Positions 22,498-56,040 of a stretch of DNA of 64,000 nucleotides are shown here, one piece after another (the stretch's first letter is position 1; each line of letters starts with the position of its first letter). Below the pieces are notes generated by a model, which saw only the letters and a list, made by a program, of their open reading frames with translations, was not told the origin of the DNA and did no database searches. The stretch comes from Armatimonadota bacterium (GTDB taxonomy: Bacteria > Armatimonadota > Chthonomonadetes > Chthonomonadales > CAJBBX01): positions 1-64,000 of the forward strand of contig JAPLCQ010000076.1 in assembly GCA_026392115.1 (NCBI GenBank), written 5' to 3'. The translations under genes and the position numbers were made by a program.

Positions 22498-23004
22498 GTG
22501 GCGGCGCCCGCGCCAAAGGAGCCCGACATACCGACGCCAGACGCGAGCACCGTGGCGGCGAGCAAGCGCATCGCGCTGATCGCCCACGACAACATGAAGC
22601 CGGAGCTCATCGAGTGGGTGCGCACCCACCGCTCGGCGTTGGCGCAGCACGACCTCACCGCCACGGGCACCACCGGCAGGCTGCTTGAGGAGGCGCTGGG
22701 CCTCCCCGTGACCAGGCTCCAGAGCGGCCCGCTCGGCGGCGACCTGCAGATCGGCGCGCGCATCGCCGAGGGCGCCATAGACCTGGTGATCTTCTTCTGG
22801 GACCCGCTGGAAGCGCAACCCCACGACCCCGACGTGAAGGCCCTCCTGCGCATCGCGGCGGTCTGGAACGTCCCCGTGGCCTGCAACCTCGCAACCGCCG
22901 ACTACCTCGTCTCGTCGCCGCTCATGGCCTCGGCCCATCCGCGCATCTTGCCGGACTACGAGGCGCACCGGAACCGGCTGGTCGGCTCCCCGATCGCGCC
23001 GTAG
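22498..23004 (+). CDS. mgsA: Methylglyoxal synthase
   Basis: Converts dihydroxyacetone phosphate to methylglyoxal plus phosphate, a bypass of lower glycolysis. Recognisable are '[13 protein letters not shown]', the phosphate-binding [22 protein letters not shown], and [20 protein letters not shown] with the catalytic Asp. Length is 168 aa with a GTG start at 22498; an alternative GTG at 22552 would trim a variable N-terminal stretch. The following direct-repeat copy begins 27 bp after the stop. Confidence 0.93.
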
Positions 23005-23031: not shown

Positions 23032-23073
23032 GCAGGTATCCCCGCCCCCGCCGCCGAACCTGAGGGGTGAACC
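23032..23073 (+). repeat. 42-bp direct repeat, left copy
   Basis: Identical to 23900-23941; begins GCAGGTATCCCC and ends GAGGGGTGAACC. Confidence 0.9.
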
Positions 23074-23084
23074 GCACAAACAGA

Positions 23085-23112
23085 AGCGCCCCCACCCGAA
23101 GGTGGGGGCGCT
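23085..23112 (+). terminator. Perfect 12-bp hairpin with CGAA tetraloop
   Basis: Arms 23085-23096 and 23101-23112 pair exactly around CGAA. It lies just inside the left end of the NYN cassette and would end transcripts from mgsA. A weaker 8-bp hairpin follows at 23117-23135. Confidence 0.7.
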
Positions 23113-23116
23113 GGGT

Positions 23117-23135
23117 CCGAAGATGCTATCTTCGG
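23117..23135 (+). other. 8-bp perfect hairpin
   Basis: CCGAAGAT (23117-23124) pairs with ATCTTCGG (23128-23135) around GCT, directly after the larger hairpin. It may be part of the terminator or of the NYN promoter region. Confidence 0.4.
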
Positions 23136-23207
23136 CGGTGTTGCTCGCATTATAGCGCACAGTCCACGAGGCGTCAACAGGGCGGCGGTCCGGAGCGAGG
23201 TGATCTA

Positions 23208-23843
23208 GTGGCGCAGGCTAGTCGCGGCATGGCAGTAGAGCGGGTGGCAGCATATATTGACGGTTTCAACTTGTACTTCGGCATGAGATCGTGCGGCTGG
23301 CGCCGCTACTACTGGCTCGACCCAACCAAGCTGGTCAGCCATATAGCACGTGCGGGAAGTCAGATTGTGCGCACGGTCTACTGCACGGCACGCATCAGCC
23401 GGCCTGAGGACAAACGTAGACGGCAACTGACCTACCTCGAGGCCCTCGAGTCATTGCCTGCCTGTGAGGTGCTCTATGGAAAGTACCAGGAGGAGCCGGC
23501 TCGATGCCGGACCTGCGGCGCGGAATGGACGGTGCCTAAGGAGAAGATGACCGACGCGCAACTCGTGGCATGCATTGTCAGTGATGCATTCCTTAATATC
23601 TACGATACAGCACTGGTTATATCGGCCGATGCTGACCTGGTGCCGGCCGTTCGCGCAGTGCAGGCCAACTTCGCGGCCAAGCAGATCGTGGCTGTCATGC
23701 CTCCAGGCCGAAAGTGCCAAGAGCTTCAGAACATTTGCTCGCAAACCAAACAGATCTGGGAAGACGCCTTGAAGACGAGTCAGCTCCCAGATGTGGTCCA
23801 CGGCTCTACCCATAGGTGGCAGCGGCCTCCTGAGTGGTCATAG
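23208..23843 (+). CDS. NYN-domain (PIN-like) RNase family protein
   Basis: A ~211-aa protein. The NYN fold is recognised from AAYIDGFNLYFG (first acidic site), then 'KEKMTDAQLVACIVSDAF' and 'TALVISADADLVPAVRAV' with the further catalytic Asp residues. A CRTCG pair in the middle may help bind a metal. NYN proteins are predicted RNases; some act in RNA processing and some in defence. GTG 23208 is chosen because AGGTGA precedes it; ATG 23229 is the alternative. The gene is clearly less GC-rich than its neighbours and lies alone between exact 42-bp repeats, so it looks acquired. Confidence 0.8.
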   Translation: MAQASRGMAVERVAAYIDGFNLYFGMRSCGWRRYYWLDPTKLVSHIARAGSQIVRTVYCTARISRPEDKRRRQLTYLEALESLPACEVLYGKYQEEPARCRTCGAEWTVPKEKMTDAQLVACIVSDAFLNIYDTALVISADADLVPAVRAVQANFAAKQIVAVMPPGRKCQELQNICSQTKQIWEDALKTSQLPDVVHGSTHRWQRPPEWS

Positions 23844-23899
23844 GCACGGCATCGTCGACGCCCGGTGGCAGAGCTACGTAGCCGCTGCGCTGACCCGTG

Positions 23900-23941
23900 G
23901 CAGGTATCCCCGCCCCCGCCGCCGAACCTGAGGGGTGAACC
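23900..23941 (+). repeat. 42-bp direct repeat, right copy
   Basis: Identical to 23032-23073. It directly precedes the URO-D-like gene, ending 22 bp before its ATG. Confidence 0.9.
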
Positions 23942-23963: not shown

Positions 23964-25232
23964 ATGGCATCGCCCAACGTAACCGTGAACCCCGAGGACC
24001 TCCGCATCCTCCGTGAGCTGGCCCGCCGCAAGCTGGACGCCGCGGCGCACCCCGACAACGCGGCCCGGCGCGCGCTCTGGCTGGCCCACGACGCCGGCCG
24101 GGGCGAGCGTCCGCTGGTGCTCGCCGAGTCGCATGTCTCCTTCGCCGACCTGCCCGCGTCGCAGACCCAGTGCACCGAGCAGTGGGCTCGCGACCTGGAG
24201 TCGGGGCTCCGGTTCGACCTCTGGCAGTTCGAGGTGATGAAGGACGACCACGTGCTGGAGCCGTGGGTCAATACCGGCTGGCGCGTCTCGACCACGGACT
24301 ACGGCGTGCAGACCAAGACGACGTGGGCCGACCGGGTGAGCGGCAACGTGAGCAGCCGCCACTGGGACCCGCCTCTCACCGACCTGCCCCGCGACCTGGA
24401 CCTGCTCAAGCCCCGCAGCTTCAGCGTCGACCGCGAGGCCTCGCTGGCCTGGTGCGACCATCTGGCCGAGGTCTTCGACGGCACGCTGGGCGTGCGCATC
24501 CGCGGCGGTTTCTGGTGGACCACGGGCCTCACGTGGAGCGCCATCGACCTGATCGGCCTGGAGCCGTTCATGCTCGCCATGGCCATCGACGGCGAGAGCA
24601 TCCACCGGCTCATGGCCTTCCTCAGCGAGGACCTGATGGAGTACACGAGCTGGCTCGAGGCCGAGGGGCTCTTCACGCTTAACAACGAGAACGACTACAT
24701 CGGCTCCGGCAGCATGGGCTATACGGCGTCGCTGCCCACCGAGGGATACACGGCCGACGCGCCCGCCCGCCCGTGCGACCTCTGGACGCTCTGCGAGTCG
24801 CAGGAGACCGTCTCCGTGAGCCCGTCCATGTTCGAGGAGTTCGTCTTCCAGTACCAGAGGCCCGTTGCCGAGCGGTTCGGCGCCTGCTACTACGGATGCT
24901 GCGAGCCGGTGAACAACCGCTGGCACGTCATCAAGAAGCTGAAGAACCTGCGCCGCGTCTCAGTCTCGCCATGGTGCCACGAGACGTTCATGGCCGAGGC
25001 GCTGGGTCGGGGGATCGCCTTCTCGCGGAAGCCCAACCCGGCCCTGGTCAGCACCGAGCGCTGGGACGAGGAGGCCATCGTGGAGGACCTGCGCGCCACG
25101 CTTCATGCGGCGGCGGGGTGCAGCCTGGAGGTCATCATGAAGGACGTCCACACGCTGGCCGGCGAGCCCATGCGCCTGGCCCGATGGGTCGAGCTGGCCA
25201 AGCAGGGCATCGACCGCTGGTGGGCTCGATGA
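23964..25232 (+). CDS. Uroporphyrinogen-decarboxylase-superfamily protein (methyltransferase-like)
   Basis: A 422-aa protein of the URO-D superfamily, which includes MtaA/CmuA-type corrinoid methyltransferases. In genomes rich in sugar catabolism these are common and mostly uncharacterised. Recognisable parts are the N-terminal 'LDLLKPRSFSVDREASLAW' stretch, the barrel segment 'YYGCCEPVNNRW' near residue 310 (likely metal-binding Cys/His region) and 'VSVSPWCHETFMAEALG'. ATG 23964 has AGGAG upstream and replaces a longer frame that runs through the 42-bp repeat. Its stop overlaps the next gene (ATGA), so the two are co-translated. Confidence 0.7.
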   Translation: MASPNVTVNPEDLRILRELARRKLDAAAHPDNAARRALWLAHDAGRGERPLVLAESHVSFADLPASQTQCTEQWARDLESGLRFDLWQFEVMKDDHVLEPWVNTGWRVSTTDYGVQTKTTWADRVSGNVSSRHWDPPLTDLPRDLDLLKPRSFSVDREASLAWCDHLAEVFDGTLGVRIRGGFWWTTGLTWSAIDLIGLEPFMLAMAIDGESIHRLMAFLSEDLMEYTSWLEAEGLFTLNNENDYIGSGSMGYTASLPTEGYTADAPARPCDLWTLCESQETVSVSPSMFEEFVFQYQRPVAERFGACYYGCCEPVNNRWHVIKKLKNLRRVSVSPWCHETFMAEALGRGIAFSRKPNPALVSTERWDEEAIVEDLRATLHAAAGCSLEVIMKDVHTLAGEPMRLARWVELAKQGIDRWWAR

Positions 25233-52577: not shown

Positions 52578-53406
52578 GGCCCAGCCGCTCGGCGACGGCC
52601 TGCCGCACGCGGTCGCCGGCCTCCTCGTCGTCCAGCGCGGCCACGGCCGCGGCGGGAAGGTAGCTCTCCCAGCGACCGATGTCGAGCCTCCGCTCGGCAC
52701 CGGCCAGCGGCGTCCCGCGCAGGGGCAGGCCGTCGGCGGCCATGGCGGCGATGGCGTCCGTGAGGCAGCACTCGCCGTTGGCCTTGGGCTGGATGCGGCG
52801 CAGGTAGGGTATGGCTTCGGCGCCCAGGACCCAGCGAGCCGCCACGGCCCAGCGGCTGGGCGCGCGGTTGGGGTCGGGCTTCTCCACCATATCCACCACG
52901 CGGAAGCTGCCGTCGTCGTCGAAGCCGTCGGGTCCGGGCGCGAGAATGCCGTAGTGGCGTACGCGCTCGGGCGGCACGTCCTCGCAGAGGGCCGTGGCCA
53001 TGGAGCCGTGGGCCGTGTGGGCGGCGGACAGGCGGGCCGCCGGACCGCAACCGGGCCCCACGATGCAGTCGCCGAAGGCCGTCAGGAAGGGCTCGCCCCC
53101 GGCCCGCTCCCCGCCGCAGAGCACCGCGTCGCCCAATCCGCGCATGACGGGCTGGATGACGTACTCCACCTCTACGCGCCACTCGGAGCCGTCGCCGAAG
53201 TAGCGGCGGATCATCTCCTTGTCCGGCGAGACGACGAGGAGGATGCGCTCCATGCCCGCGCCGCGCATCTCCTCAACGACGTACTCCAAGAGCGGCTTGC
53301 GGCCGATGGGCAGCATCTCCTTGGGGATCGCCCGGGTGATGGGCCGGAGGCGGCTCCCGTGGCCCGCCGCCACGATCACCGCCTGCCGGACGCGCTTGCC
53401 GGACAT
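52546..53406 (-). CDS. Sugar-1-phosphate nucleotidyltransferase (GalU-like)
   Basis: A 286-aa protein. N-terminal pyrophosphorylase motif VIVAAGHGSRLRPITRAIPK, 'EMLPIGRKPLLEYVVEEM', and the UTP-glucose-type stretch 'EYVIQPVMRGLGDAVLCGGE', then 'DDGSFRVVDMVEKPDPNRAP'. Most like UTP-glucose-1-phosphate uridylyltransferase, making UDP-glucose for envelope or exopolysaccharide sugars. Length fits. It starts 3 bp after the SGNH hydrolase stop region on the same strand, so likely co-transcribed. The C-terminus overlaps the NAGPA gene tail-to-tail. Confidence 0.85.
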   Translation of the reverse strand: MSGKRVRQAVIVAAGHGSRLRPITRAIPKEMLPIGRKPLLEYVVEEMRGAGMERILLVVSPDKEMIRRYFGDGSEWRVEVEYVIQPVMRGLGDAVLCGGERAGGEPFLTAFGDCIVGPGCGPAARLSAAHTAHGSMATALCEDVPPERVRHYGILAPGPDGFDDDGSFRVVDMVEKPDPNRAPSRWAVAARWVLGAEAIPYLRRIQPKANGECCLTDAIAAMAADGLPLRGTPLAGAERRLDIGRWESYLPAAAVAALDDEEAGDRVRQAVAERLGLSAEPAPRRC

Positions 53407-53409
53407 GGG

Positions 53410-54726
53410 CTAGAAGTTTTCCATCAGCGCCTTGGCGAACATGGCGTGGCCGCGGTCGTCGGGATGGTTCAGCGAGTTGACCTCGAGGGTGATGTAGGGG
53501 ATGCCCTCCTTCACCAGGTGGCCCCAGCGGAGCGACGTGTCGGCGATGGCCACCTTGTGCTTGGCGCAGAAGGCGCGGACGCCGGCGACGTAGGGCCGGG
53601 GGTCTTCCTCGATGCGGATCGTCTTGGAGCCCATCCAGTCCTGCCACACATAGTGCGGCGTGATGATGATCCAGTCGGCGCCGATCTCCTTGAAGCGCTT
53701 CTCGAGGTAGGTGTACTTCTCCTCGACCTGCTGCGGGTTCATCCAGCCGTCGTTGACGAACTCCATGACGATCAGGTCGGGCCTCCGCTGGATGACGGCC
53801 TTCTCGAAGTTGAACTCGCTGTCGGCGGGCGCCTGCAGGAAGCTGTCGCTGTTGCGGCCGCCCCAGCCGGCCGTGGTGAGGGTGATCCGGCTCTTGGGGT
53901 ACTTGCGGCCGAGCATCTGCACGAAGACGTTCTGGTAGCGCGTCTCCACGCTGCTGGCCTCGCCGCCCGCGGTGACGCTGTCGCCCCAGGCCAGCACGCT
54001 GACCGGTTCGCCGGCGCGGAGCCTGGCCCATGTGCGCGGCAGGAGGGCGGCGGCCGGCGGCGCGCCCTTGCGGACGGGTTCGGGGTAGGCGGCCTCGACG
54101 ACCGGGTAGAGGTTCTCGGCGGCGAGGGCCTCGCATCCGCCGGGCACCCAGATGTTGGCCACGACCGCCTCGTCCGCGCCCACGACGGGCGGCTTGGGCG
54201 TGGCGTTGTGCGGCTGTCCCTTGAGCACCGAGACTGCGCCCTTGCCGTCGACCACGATGGAGTCGATCCGGAGCAGGCCCACCTCGTAGTCCGCCCAGAC
54301 CGGCGTGCCCGCGGGCAGGGCCTCCAAGCGACCGAAGGTACCCCAACGGGGCTCCAGTCCGATCTCGGTCCCCACGCGGAGCCGTTTGCCCGCGCTTCCG
54401 GGGCCGTTCTTGAAAACGAGCGTGTCGGCCTTGAGCAGGTCGGGCCCGGTGGTTTCGCTGGTGATGACGGCCTTGAGCCGCGCGCCACGCGTCCACGGCG
54501 CCGCCGTGGCGTCGTAGGGCGGCAGTGAGTCGAACTTCTCGTCGGCGATGACGAGGCGCGACGCCGGGCTGATCGTCAGCGTCACCGGCTGGGCGATGCG
54601 CACCACCGCCTTGCCGATCTTGACGCTGCCGGGGCTCAGGCGCACCCGCCAGGCTCCTGCCAGAGCGAGGGTGGGGGCCGCGACCTCGGACGAGGGCGGC
54701 AGGGCGGCGATCATGGGCACCAGCAT
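53410..54726 (-). CDS. SGNH/GDSL-type hydrolase with N-terminal beta domain
   Basis: A 438-aa protein. Residues ~1-200 are beta-rich of unknown type. The SGNH esterase domain follows, with block I 'VLAWGDSVTAGG' (Ser near 245), block II Gly in 'TTAGWGGRNSDSF', block III 'EFVNDGWMNP' (Asn) and block V 'SLNHPDDRGHAMFA' (catalytic His, with Asp nearby). Likely a carbohydrate esterase acting on acetylated or acylated glycans. No clear signal peptide from ATG 54726. It precedes the GalU-like gene with a 3-bp gap. Confidence 0.8.
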   Translation of the reverse strand: MLVPMIAALPPSSEVAAPTLALAGAWRVRLSPGSVKIGKAVVRIAQPVTLTISPASRLVIADEKFDSLPPYDATAAPWTRGARLKAVITSETTGPDLLKADTLVFKNGPGSAGKRLRVGTEIGLEPRWGTFGRLEALPAGTPVWADYEVGLLRIDSIVVDGKGAVSVLKGQPHNATPKPPVVGADEAVVANIWVPGGCEALAAENLYPVVEAAYPEPVRKGAPPAAALLPRTWARLRAGEPVSVLAWGDSVTAGGEASSVETRYQNVFVQMLGRKYPKSRITLTTAGWGGRNSDSFLQAPADSEFNFEKAVIQRRPDLIVMEFVNDGWMNPQQVEEKYTYLEKRFKEIGADWIIITPHYVWQDWMGSKTIRIEEDPRPYVAGVRAFCAKHKVAIADTSLRWGHLVKEGIPYITLEVNSLNHPDDRGHAMFAKALMENF

Positions 54727-54753
54727 CGTGTTTCTCCTGTCCCTGGCCCGAAC

Positions 54754-56040
54754 CTACTTCAGGTCCAGGCAGACCAGCTCTTTCTTGTTGCGGACCAGCA
54801 GCCGTCCCTGCGCGACGATGGGCGCCGTCCAGGCCTGGCCGCCCAGCGGCGCGACGCGGCCCAGCTCCTTGTACCCCGCGGGGCTCATGGCCACCTGCAC
54901 CACGTCGCCGTTGGAGCCGTTCAGCACGATCAGCGTACCGTCGACACCCACCAGGCCGCCCCACTCGAAGCCGCTCCGGCTCCAGACCACGCGGCCGTTG
55001 CCTGCGTCGATACAGGCCAGTTCGCCGCGCTCGCCGGTGCAGTAGAGGAAGCCGCCCGCCACGATGGGCGTGGTGAAGCGCGACTGCAGATCGGTGTTCT
55101 GCCACCGGACGCTCGCCGAGCCGCCGGAGATATCGAGCCGTGCGCCGCCCGTGCCGTAGCCGCTGGTGACGATGACGGTGTTGTCCAGCACGCGGGGGGT
55201 GGCGGCGTTCACGTCATACGACGTCTGCCACGGGTGGCTCCAGATGGCGCGGCCCGTATCGGGCGCGATGCCCATCACCTGCTTGGCCGAGAAGATGATG
55301 ATCTGCTTCCGACCGTTCAGGGTCGCCACGATGGGCGTGGAATAGCCCGGCCCGTCATCGTTGCCGCCGCGCCAGAGGATATTGCCGGAGTTCTTGTCCA
55401 GGGCCACCAGGCAGGCGCCGGTCGCGCCCACGGCAGCCAGCACGCGGTCGCCGTCGATCACGGGCGAGGTGGCGAACTCCCAGGTCGGCTTGCGCGCTCC
55501 GGCCTCGGCCATCAGGTCCTTGCTCCAGACCAGCGAGCCGCCGGCGGCGTCGAGGCAGACGACGAGCGCGTTGCGGGTGATGGCATAGACCTTGCCGCCC
55601 GAGACGGCCGGCGTCGACTTGCCGAAACCGTAGTTGGAGCCGCCGGAGTCGGGCACGTTGGTGGCCCACTTCTGCTTGCCGGTGGCCAGGTTCAGAGCCC
55701 TCACGCAGCTCTGGCCGTTCTGCACATCCAGGATGTAGACGAGGCCGCCGGCCACTGCGGGCCCGGCGTACCCGTCGTCACCCATGGGTGCGCGCCAAAG
55801 CGCCTTCGGGGGCCGGGAAGCCCACGCCTTGTTGATGCCCTTCTCGCCCGACAACCCCGTGGCGGCGGGCCCGAGGAACTGCGGCCAATCAGAGCCGCCC
55901 GACGTGGGCCGCGCGGCGGCCTGCGATTCGCTTGCGGCAGGCGGCTGCGGCGCATTGGAAGTGGACTCGGCGGGACGACTGCAACCAGCTGCGAGCGCTA
56001 CGGTGATGAGCGCGATGTTGACAGACCACGGACGGCGCAT
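54754..56040 (-). CDS. Lipoprotein with PQQ-type beta-propeller
   Basis: A 428-aa lipoprotein: signal with lipobox LAAGC (Cys20), a Ser/Ala/Pro-rich linker, 'DWPQFLGPAATGLSGEKGI', then repeated propeller blades such as 'KALWRAPMGDDGYAGPAVAGG' and 'GNGRVVWSRSGFEWGGLVGVDGTLIVL'. PQQ-like WD40 propellers of this kind are abundant in Planctomycetota/Armatimonadota. They usually lack dehydrogenase activity and may scaffold or sense. Divergent from the DUF47 gene, with 188 bp between the starts. Confidence 0.85.
   Translation of the reverse strand: MRRPWSVNIALITVALAAGCSRPAESTSNAPQPPAASESQAAARPTSGGSDWPQFLGPAATGLSGEKGINKAWASRPPKALWRAPMGDDGYAGPAVAGGLVYILDVQNGQSCVRALNLATGKQKWATNVPDSGGSNYGFGKSTPAVSGGKVYAITRNALVVCLDAAGGSLVWSKDLMAEAGARKPTWEFATSPVIDGDRVLAAVGATGACLVALDKNSGNILWRGGNDDGPGYSTPIVATLNGRKQIIIFSAKQVMGIAPDTGRAIWSHPWQTSYDVNAATPRVLDNTVIVTSGYGTGGARLDISGGSASVRWQNTDLQSRFTTPIVAGGFLYCTGERGELACIDAGNGRVVWSRSGFEWGGLVGVDGTLIVLNGSNGDVVQVAMSPAGYKELGRVAPLGGQAWTAPIVAQGRLLVRNKKELVCLDLK

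Follow-up and report, generated by a model that had tools for sequence, protein, structure and literature searches.

Within the window, by which we mean the whole stretch of 64,000 nucleotides that was analysed, the gene at 22498-23004 encodes a methylglyoxal synthase (mgsA, identified by two NCBIfam equivalog models) and is separated from the next gene (23964-25232) by an exact 42-bp direct repeat (42/42 identical, spacing 868) that encloses a putative nuclease gene and a set of hairpins. The downstream gene, which the earlier note had called URO-D-like, matches no profile in Pfam or NCBIfam; its family is encoded at four places in each of two same-genus genomes (G001 and G002). The features between the two genes are the following.

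23032-23073, plus strand: target duplication, left copy (42 bp), from repeat comparison and the empty site in G001 and G002
23074-23899, no strand: inserted DNA of 826 bp, transposase gene and terminal inverted repeats absent, from the repeats, the empty sites and a check of ORFs and composition
23077-23142, minus strand: predicted small RNA with two hairpins, ends approximate (covariance model 57.4 bits, E 3.7e-12; fold z -5.8; covariation)
23085-23112, minus strand: predicted terminator hairpin of the small RNA, a 12-bp stem with U-rich tail, from folding and terminator analysis
23117-23135, minus strand: hairpin A of the small RNA with its conserved GAUAGCAUC apex, from alignment, folding and covariation
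23149-23177, minus strand: predicted sigma-70-type promoter of the small RNA, TTGACG-17-TATAAT, from promoter analysis across loci
23208-23843, plus strand: putative NYN nuclease gene of the HEC-09 family, GTG start with ATG at 23229 also possible (Pfam PF01936, PADLOC HEC-09, structure)
23900-23941, plus strand: target duplication, right copy, in its original position ahead of the downstream gene, from the repeats and the empty sites in G001 and G002

Comparison with the two same-genus genomes reveals how this arrangement arose. In both of them the site is empty, mgsA being followed by a single copy of the repeat and then by the downstream gene. In G001, whose flanks are about 96% identical to the window, the order is mgsA, then ...CTCTCAGCAGGTATCCCCGCCCTCGCCGCCGAACCTGAGGGGTGAACCCGAC..., then the downstream gene, and the single 42-bp leader differs by one base; the single leader of G002 is more diverged than that of G001. 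These empty sites exclude a chance origin of the repeats and, as each holds only one copy, they mean that the window gained 826 bp (23074-23899) together with one 42-bp target duplication by insertion. The insertion is recent. The proposal of a unit inserted with target duplication is therefore borne out, as is the view that the right copy is the downstream gene's natural leader, but the unit size of about 868 bp put forward earlier is in fact the sum of the 826-bp insert and one 42-bp repeat. Allowing up to three mismatches, a check of the whole 5.72-Mb assembly retrieved no further copy of the 42-bp sequence. The insertion left the downstream gene's leader intact, with the right copy staying ahead of the gene. 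This short leader, the duplicated 42 bp, is kept in outline across three species; a conserved fold is unsupported, the leader folding worse than its shuffles.

The insert also differs from its surroundings in composition. Its GC content is 60%, that of the NYN ORF 58.6%, and the lower GC noticed earlier is evident at third codon positions, where the NYN ORF has a GC3 of 0.68 versus 0.94-0.95 in three nearby genes checked and a window median of 0.82; a few other ORFs of the window have values just as low. Elsewhere in the window, the ORF at 53273-55105 has a GC3 of only 0.49, the lowest among the window's long ORFs. The homologue search returned no NYN relative in G001 and only a weak one in G002. 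Neither of the outcomes that the earlier note named as refuting, vertical conservation of the NYN gene here or the leader standing ahead of many genes genome-wide, was observed. One could nevertheless suppose that the leader was duplicated first, or that an ancestral NYN gene was lost on two occasions, the empty sites being deletions, given that recombination between the 42-bp repeats would leave exactly one copy. Such a history would need a loss in both relatives, each of which has one leader, and it fits poorly with the foreign composition of the insert, with a nearest homologue in this clade that is only 46% identical and belongs to another genus, and with the two window copies still being identical while the G001 copy differs by a base. 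We consider it highly improbable, and the older leader duplication for which the earlier note had left room is disfavoured with it.

The protein encoded by the insert contains an NYN domain (PF01936, E 6.7e-12, 46.6 bits against a cut-off of 24.2) and matches the PADLOC HEC-09 profile over its full length (residues 11-211 to profile positions 2-203 of 203, E 3.2e-67), a profile that is also matched by 52 of 52 aligned homologues. The NYN catalytic aspartates D18, D116, D141 and D143 as well as C100/C103 (CxxC) are invariant in the homologue alignment, and the C-terminal tail of the window protein carries an invariant Trp. The AlphaFold2 model (pLDDT 94) is most similar to 2qip (VPA0982, Z 17.7) and to the NYN domain of MARF1 (Z 15.9), far above the next matches listed. 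We regard the protein as a probable RNA-cutting enzyme (RNase), and by its profile match we file it as HEC-09, a candidate anti-phage family. HEC genes are Hma-embedded single-gene candidates, several of which are active, HEC-06 among them (PMC12988326); in the literature looked at, we came across no assay of HEC-09 for anti-phage activity. Some homologues have Hma and type I restriction genes as neighbours, others housekeeping genes. A distant form in E. coli occurs on small plasmids only, chromosomes being negative. Distant NYN homologues on 3.5-4.3 kb Escherichia and Klebsiella plasmids (L132, L133 and L134) adjoin a helix-turn-helix gene and have strong hairpins just before the NYN gene.

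The second component of the insert is a predicted small RNA of about 65 nt, divergent from the NYN gene. Along the minus strand, the order is promoter, AACANCNCC, a hairpin with apex GAUAGYAUC, a short linker, a hairpin ACGCC...GGCGU and a U-rich tail. The same element lies upstream of homologues in Bacteroidota, Chlorobiota, Planctomycetota, Pseudomonadota, Thermus and others, and it stands beside 83 of 85 homologue loci (81 recognised by pattern and a further 2 by covariance model); as for the remaining two, L131 is truncated where its contig stops, and the hairpins of L094 are of another kind. Across 40 diverse sequences, standard pairs fill 95.1% of pair cells and two-sided compensatory changes occur at 15 of 17 base pairs, and the covariation score is 0.482, where shuffles reach 0.179 and slid partners no more than 0.14. 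The structure of the element is conserved and its association with HEC-09 is tight. Its promoter follows the lineage: TTGACA-17-TATAAT-like promoters occur in the window (score 11/12), in G005, in Thermus and in others outside Bacteroidota, and in 52 loci TAnnTTTG, the Bacteroidota promoter consensus, precedes the apex at a near-fixed distance of 16-21 nt. We thus predict from sequence that the hairpin element is very likely a small-RNA gene served by a promoter and a terminator of its own. The minus strand is presumably the transcribed one, a choice that rests on promoter and terminator logic, the strand counts of GU versus AC being 21 to 16 only. As a consequence, the description of the insert as a one-gene cassette has to be given up: what had been seen as hairpins would be a conserved, divergently oriented RNA gene travelling with the NYN gene.

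Compared with Rfam, the RNA has no counterpart at gathering scores (17 loci) and none at E<=1 (5 loci), the window giving a chance hairpin match only (E 3.4), and a literature search found no description of an NYN protein paired with a small RNA. Two other roles for the RNA were considered. A reading as guide RNA was rejected, since compensatory variation in the stems goes with a fixed apex and the flanking repeats share no sequence. Transcription of the RNA would lead away from the NYN gene, which speaks against an antisense (type I) role. On a faecal phage contig (L137, 2907-2987) RNA and NYN gene share one strand, the RNA being turned round relative to the gene, which implies that the strand of the RNA is independent of that of the gene. 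L137 belongs with L191 and L192 to a second group of NYN homologues, in which a two-hairpin element lies ahead of the gene on the same strand.

RNA and nuclease also keep company at the level of genomes. Among 396 genomes of one order, the nuclease is found in 16, the RNA in 18 and both in 11, where 0.7 would be expected; in the window's clade, the RNA occurs in 2 of 41 genomes, each with a close HEC-09 homologue. RNA copies that lack an intact nuclease mostly have broken stems, as expected if the RNA decays after nuclease loss, and at L196 the RNA adjoins a deleted NYN gene. For five RNA matches in the 396 genomes, neither an NYN gene nor a relic was seen, one of these (L200) being at a contig edge, and the RNA can therefore exist without the NYN gene. 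Two covariance matches, L210 and L211 (the latter a second match in one genome), were judged to be plain terminators. Lone RNA copies, with the NYN gene absent, lie in type I restriction operons at L199 and L205 (1501-1580), between a restriction-subunit gene and a conserved 277-aa gene, and a damaged lone copy at L208 (1501-1579) lies just upstream of an apparent cas9 gene.

These observations bear on a rival explanation, namely that the hairpins are a mere terminator plus a regulatory element, or DNA end structures serving mobility, and that the NYN gene forms a genuine defence system by itself. HEC-09 is, after all, a single-gene candidate in PADLOC, its class being described in PMC12988326; the hairpin at 23085-23112, read on the minus strand, is an ordinary intrinsic terminator; and a few RNAs have no NYN neighbour. 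Such an explanation does not account, however, for the invariant apex and compensatory stem changes of the other hairpin, for a promoter that is conserved ahead of hairpin A and matched to its lineage, or for the RNA at L137, which is turned around as a whole; moreover, the insertion ends keep no fixed distance to the hairpins. We think it unlikely.

To see the same family between repeats elsewhere, we compared the upstream with the downstream flank of each unit at 77 loci with a threshold of at least 35 bits. Unit-flanking direct repeats were present at 9 of the 77, window included, against 0.03 expected from mismatched loci, while the controls, pairs of non-flanking segments from one and the same locus, gave none in 96. 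L065 has a 97-bp repeat (97% identical) of the coaD 5' end, the right-hand coaD being intact; L056 a 196-bp repeat (86%) of the 3' end of a CHAP gene, with the intact copy on the left and the fragment on the right; L077 and L052 have flanking repeats of 95 bp (83%) and 88 bp (80%), respectively. At L183, found later, a 102-bp repeat (91%; near 1050) starts in the 3' end of a tRNA-Cys gene and the NYN unit has two stop codons. Less weight falls on L097 and L088, which are situated in repeat-like DNA and may reflect dispersed repeats. The duplications differ from locus to locus in sequence and length (42, 95, 97, 196 bp and others), and the distances from repeat to gene vary as well, which together imply that the unit has no fixed ends. 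One intact copy of the target remains in the window and at L065, L056 and L183, and a long duplication thus permits insertion at the end of a gene while leaving that gene whole. No clear flanking repeat was seen at the other 68 of the 77 loci, meaning that the insertions there are mostly old or repeat-free. The comparison of filled with empty sites covers the window locus, relatives of L065 and L056 being too distant or not syntenic.

The insert bears no hallmarks of a transposon or insertion sequence: it has no transposase gene, the NYN gene being its sole evident gene, and no inverted repeat joins its ends. Instead of a target duplication, the 42-bp repeats might be the attachment sites of a site-specific recombinase, as in an integrase-type satellite. 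Direct repeats of about 42 bp are a usual length for tyrosine-integrase sites, and L183, with its repeat at the tRNA-Cys gene 3' end, sits at a typical integrase site where an integrase could have acted. Against this, the repeats across loci are unrelated in sequence, range from 42 to 196 bp and in several cases lie in gene ends, the distance from repeat to gene is not constant, and the 826-bp insert has no recombinase gene among its ORFs. Attachment sites are hence a very unlikely account of the window's repeats, and target duplication remains our reading of them.

Taken together, we favour with moderate confidence a mobile two-component module, similar in kind to a defence or toxin-antitoxin system, in which an inserted, putative NYN RNase is accompanied by a two-hairpin RNA that probably restrains or licenses it. 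The module came in between mgsA and the downstream gene with a long target duplication, the copied 42 bp allowing that gene to keep an intact leader. The insert encodes no transposase, and the enzymology of insertion would be driven by host functions. Elsewhere in bacteria the RNA-nuclease pair occurs at unrelated sites, some with long duplications of their own. In this scheme, the NYN protein is most probably an RNase, either defending against phage or serving as an addiction toxin; the small RNA would bind it, holding it inactive or licensing it, until infection or loss of the module releases the nuclease activity. A wider claim, which we put forward tentatively, is that these units form a new class of RNA-controlled defence or toxin-antitoxin systems with a wide bacterial distribution, in which a free-standing two-hairpin RNA, expressed from its own promoter, binds and gates an NYN RNase, and in which the pair moves as a selfish unit of about 0.8 kb by transposase-free insertion with long target duplication.

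Should HEC-09 need its RNA partner, constructs made with the gene by itself could turn out toxic or inactive, with false negatives as a result. The pair offers a compact and testable RNA-nuclease system in many phyla. With it, transposase-free insertion with long target duplication, described for restriction-modification genes, takes in a further defence-type module; the small size of the units and the clean empty site make this unexplained insertion mechanism easier to study.

How does the unit compare with known systems? The closest is HEC-09 itself, the Hma-embedded candidate of PADLOC, given the full-length profile match shared by all 52 aligned homologues, some of which adjoin Hma or type I restriction genes. 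HEC-09 is, however, listed as one gene, whereas here a conserved, predicted small-RNA gene accompanies it and the unit inserts on its own. With respect to mobility, the relevant precedent are restriction-modification genes, for which insertion with long target duplications, variable and of the order of 100 bp, is described in three articles (PMC3874152, PMC1643837 and PMC3031569, citing Nobusato et al. 2000 and Furuta et al. 2010). Those insertions likewise involve no transposase, carry long direct repeats variable in length and sequence, and were recognised against an empty genome; the cargo differs, being here an NYN nuclease with a small RNA, in many phyla. In its mode of insertion the unit is thus a case of long target duplication, carrying a new cargo. 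What the earlier note called a "new kind of mobile unit" is new in its cargo and RNA partner but not in how it inserts. Type III toxin-antitoxin systems (ToxIN, CptIN, TenpIN) may resemble the pair in possible logic only, an RNase controlled by an adjoining structured RNA. In type III systems the RNA consists of tandem repeats upstream of the toxin and on its strand, and the toxin probably has a fold unlike NYN. Here, by contrast, the RNA is a single two-hairpin unit, divergent from the gene in the main group, and the protein has an NYN/PIN-like fold; its model matches NYN structures best, and ToxN is not among the matches listed. The LabA-like, VPA0982 and MARF1 NYN RNases share the fold (Z 15-18) and the acidic active site at no more than 18% identity, and the window protein adds to them the CxxC motif, the C-terminal tail with its invariant Trp and the attached RNA gene. 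We would provisionally file the pair, pending tests, among RNA-nuclease modules.
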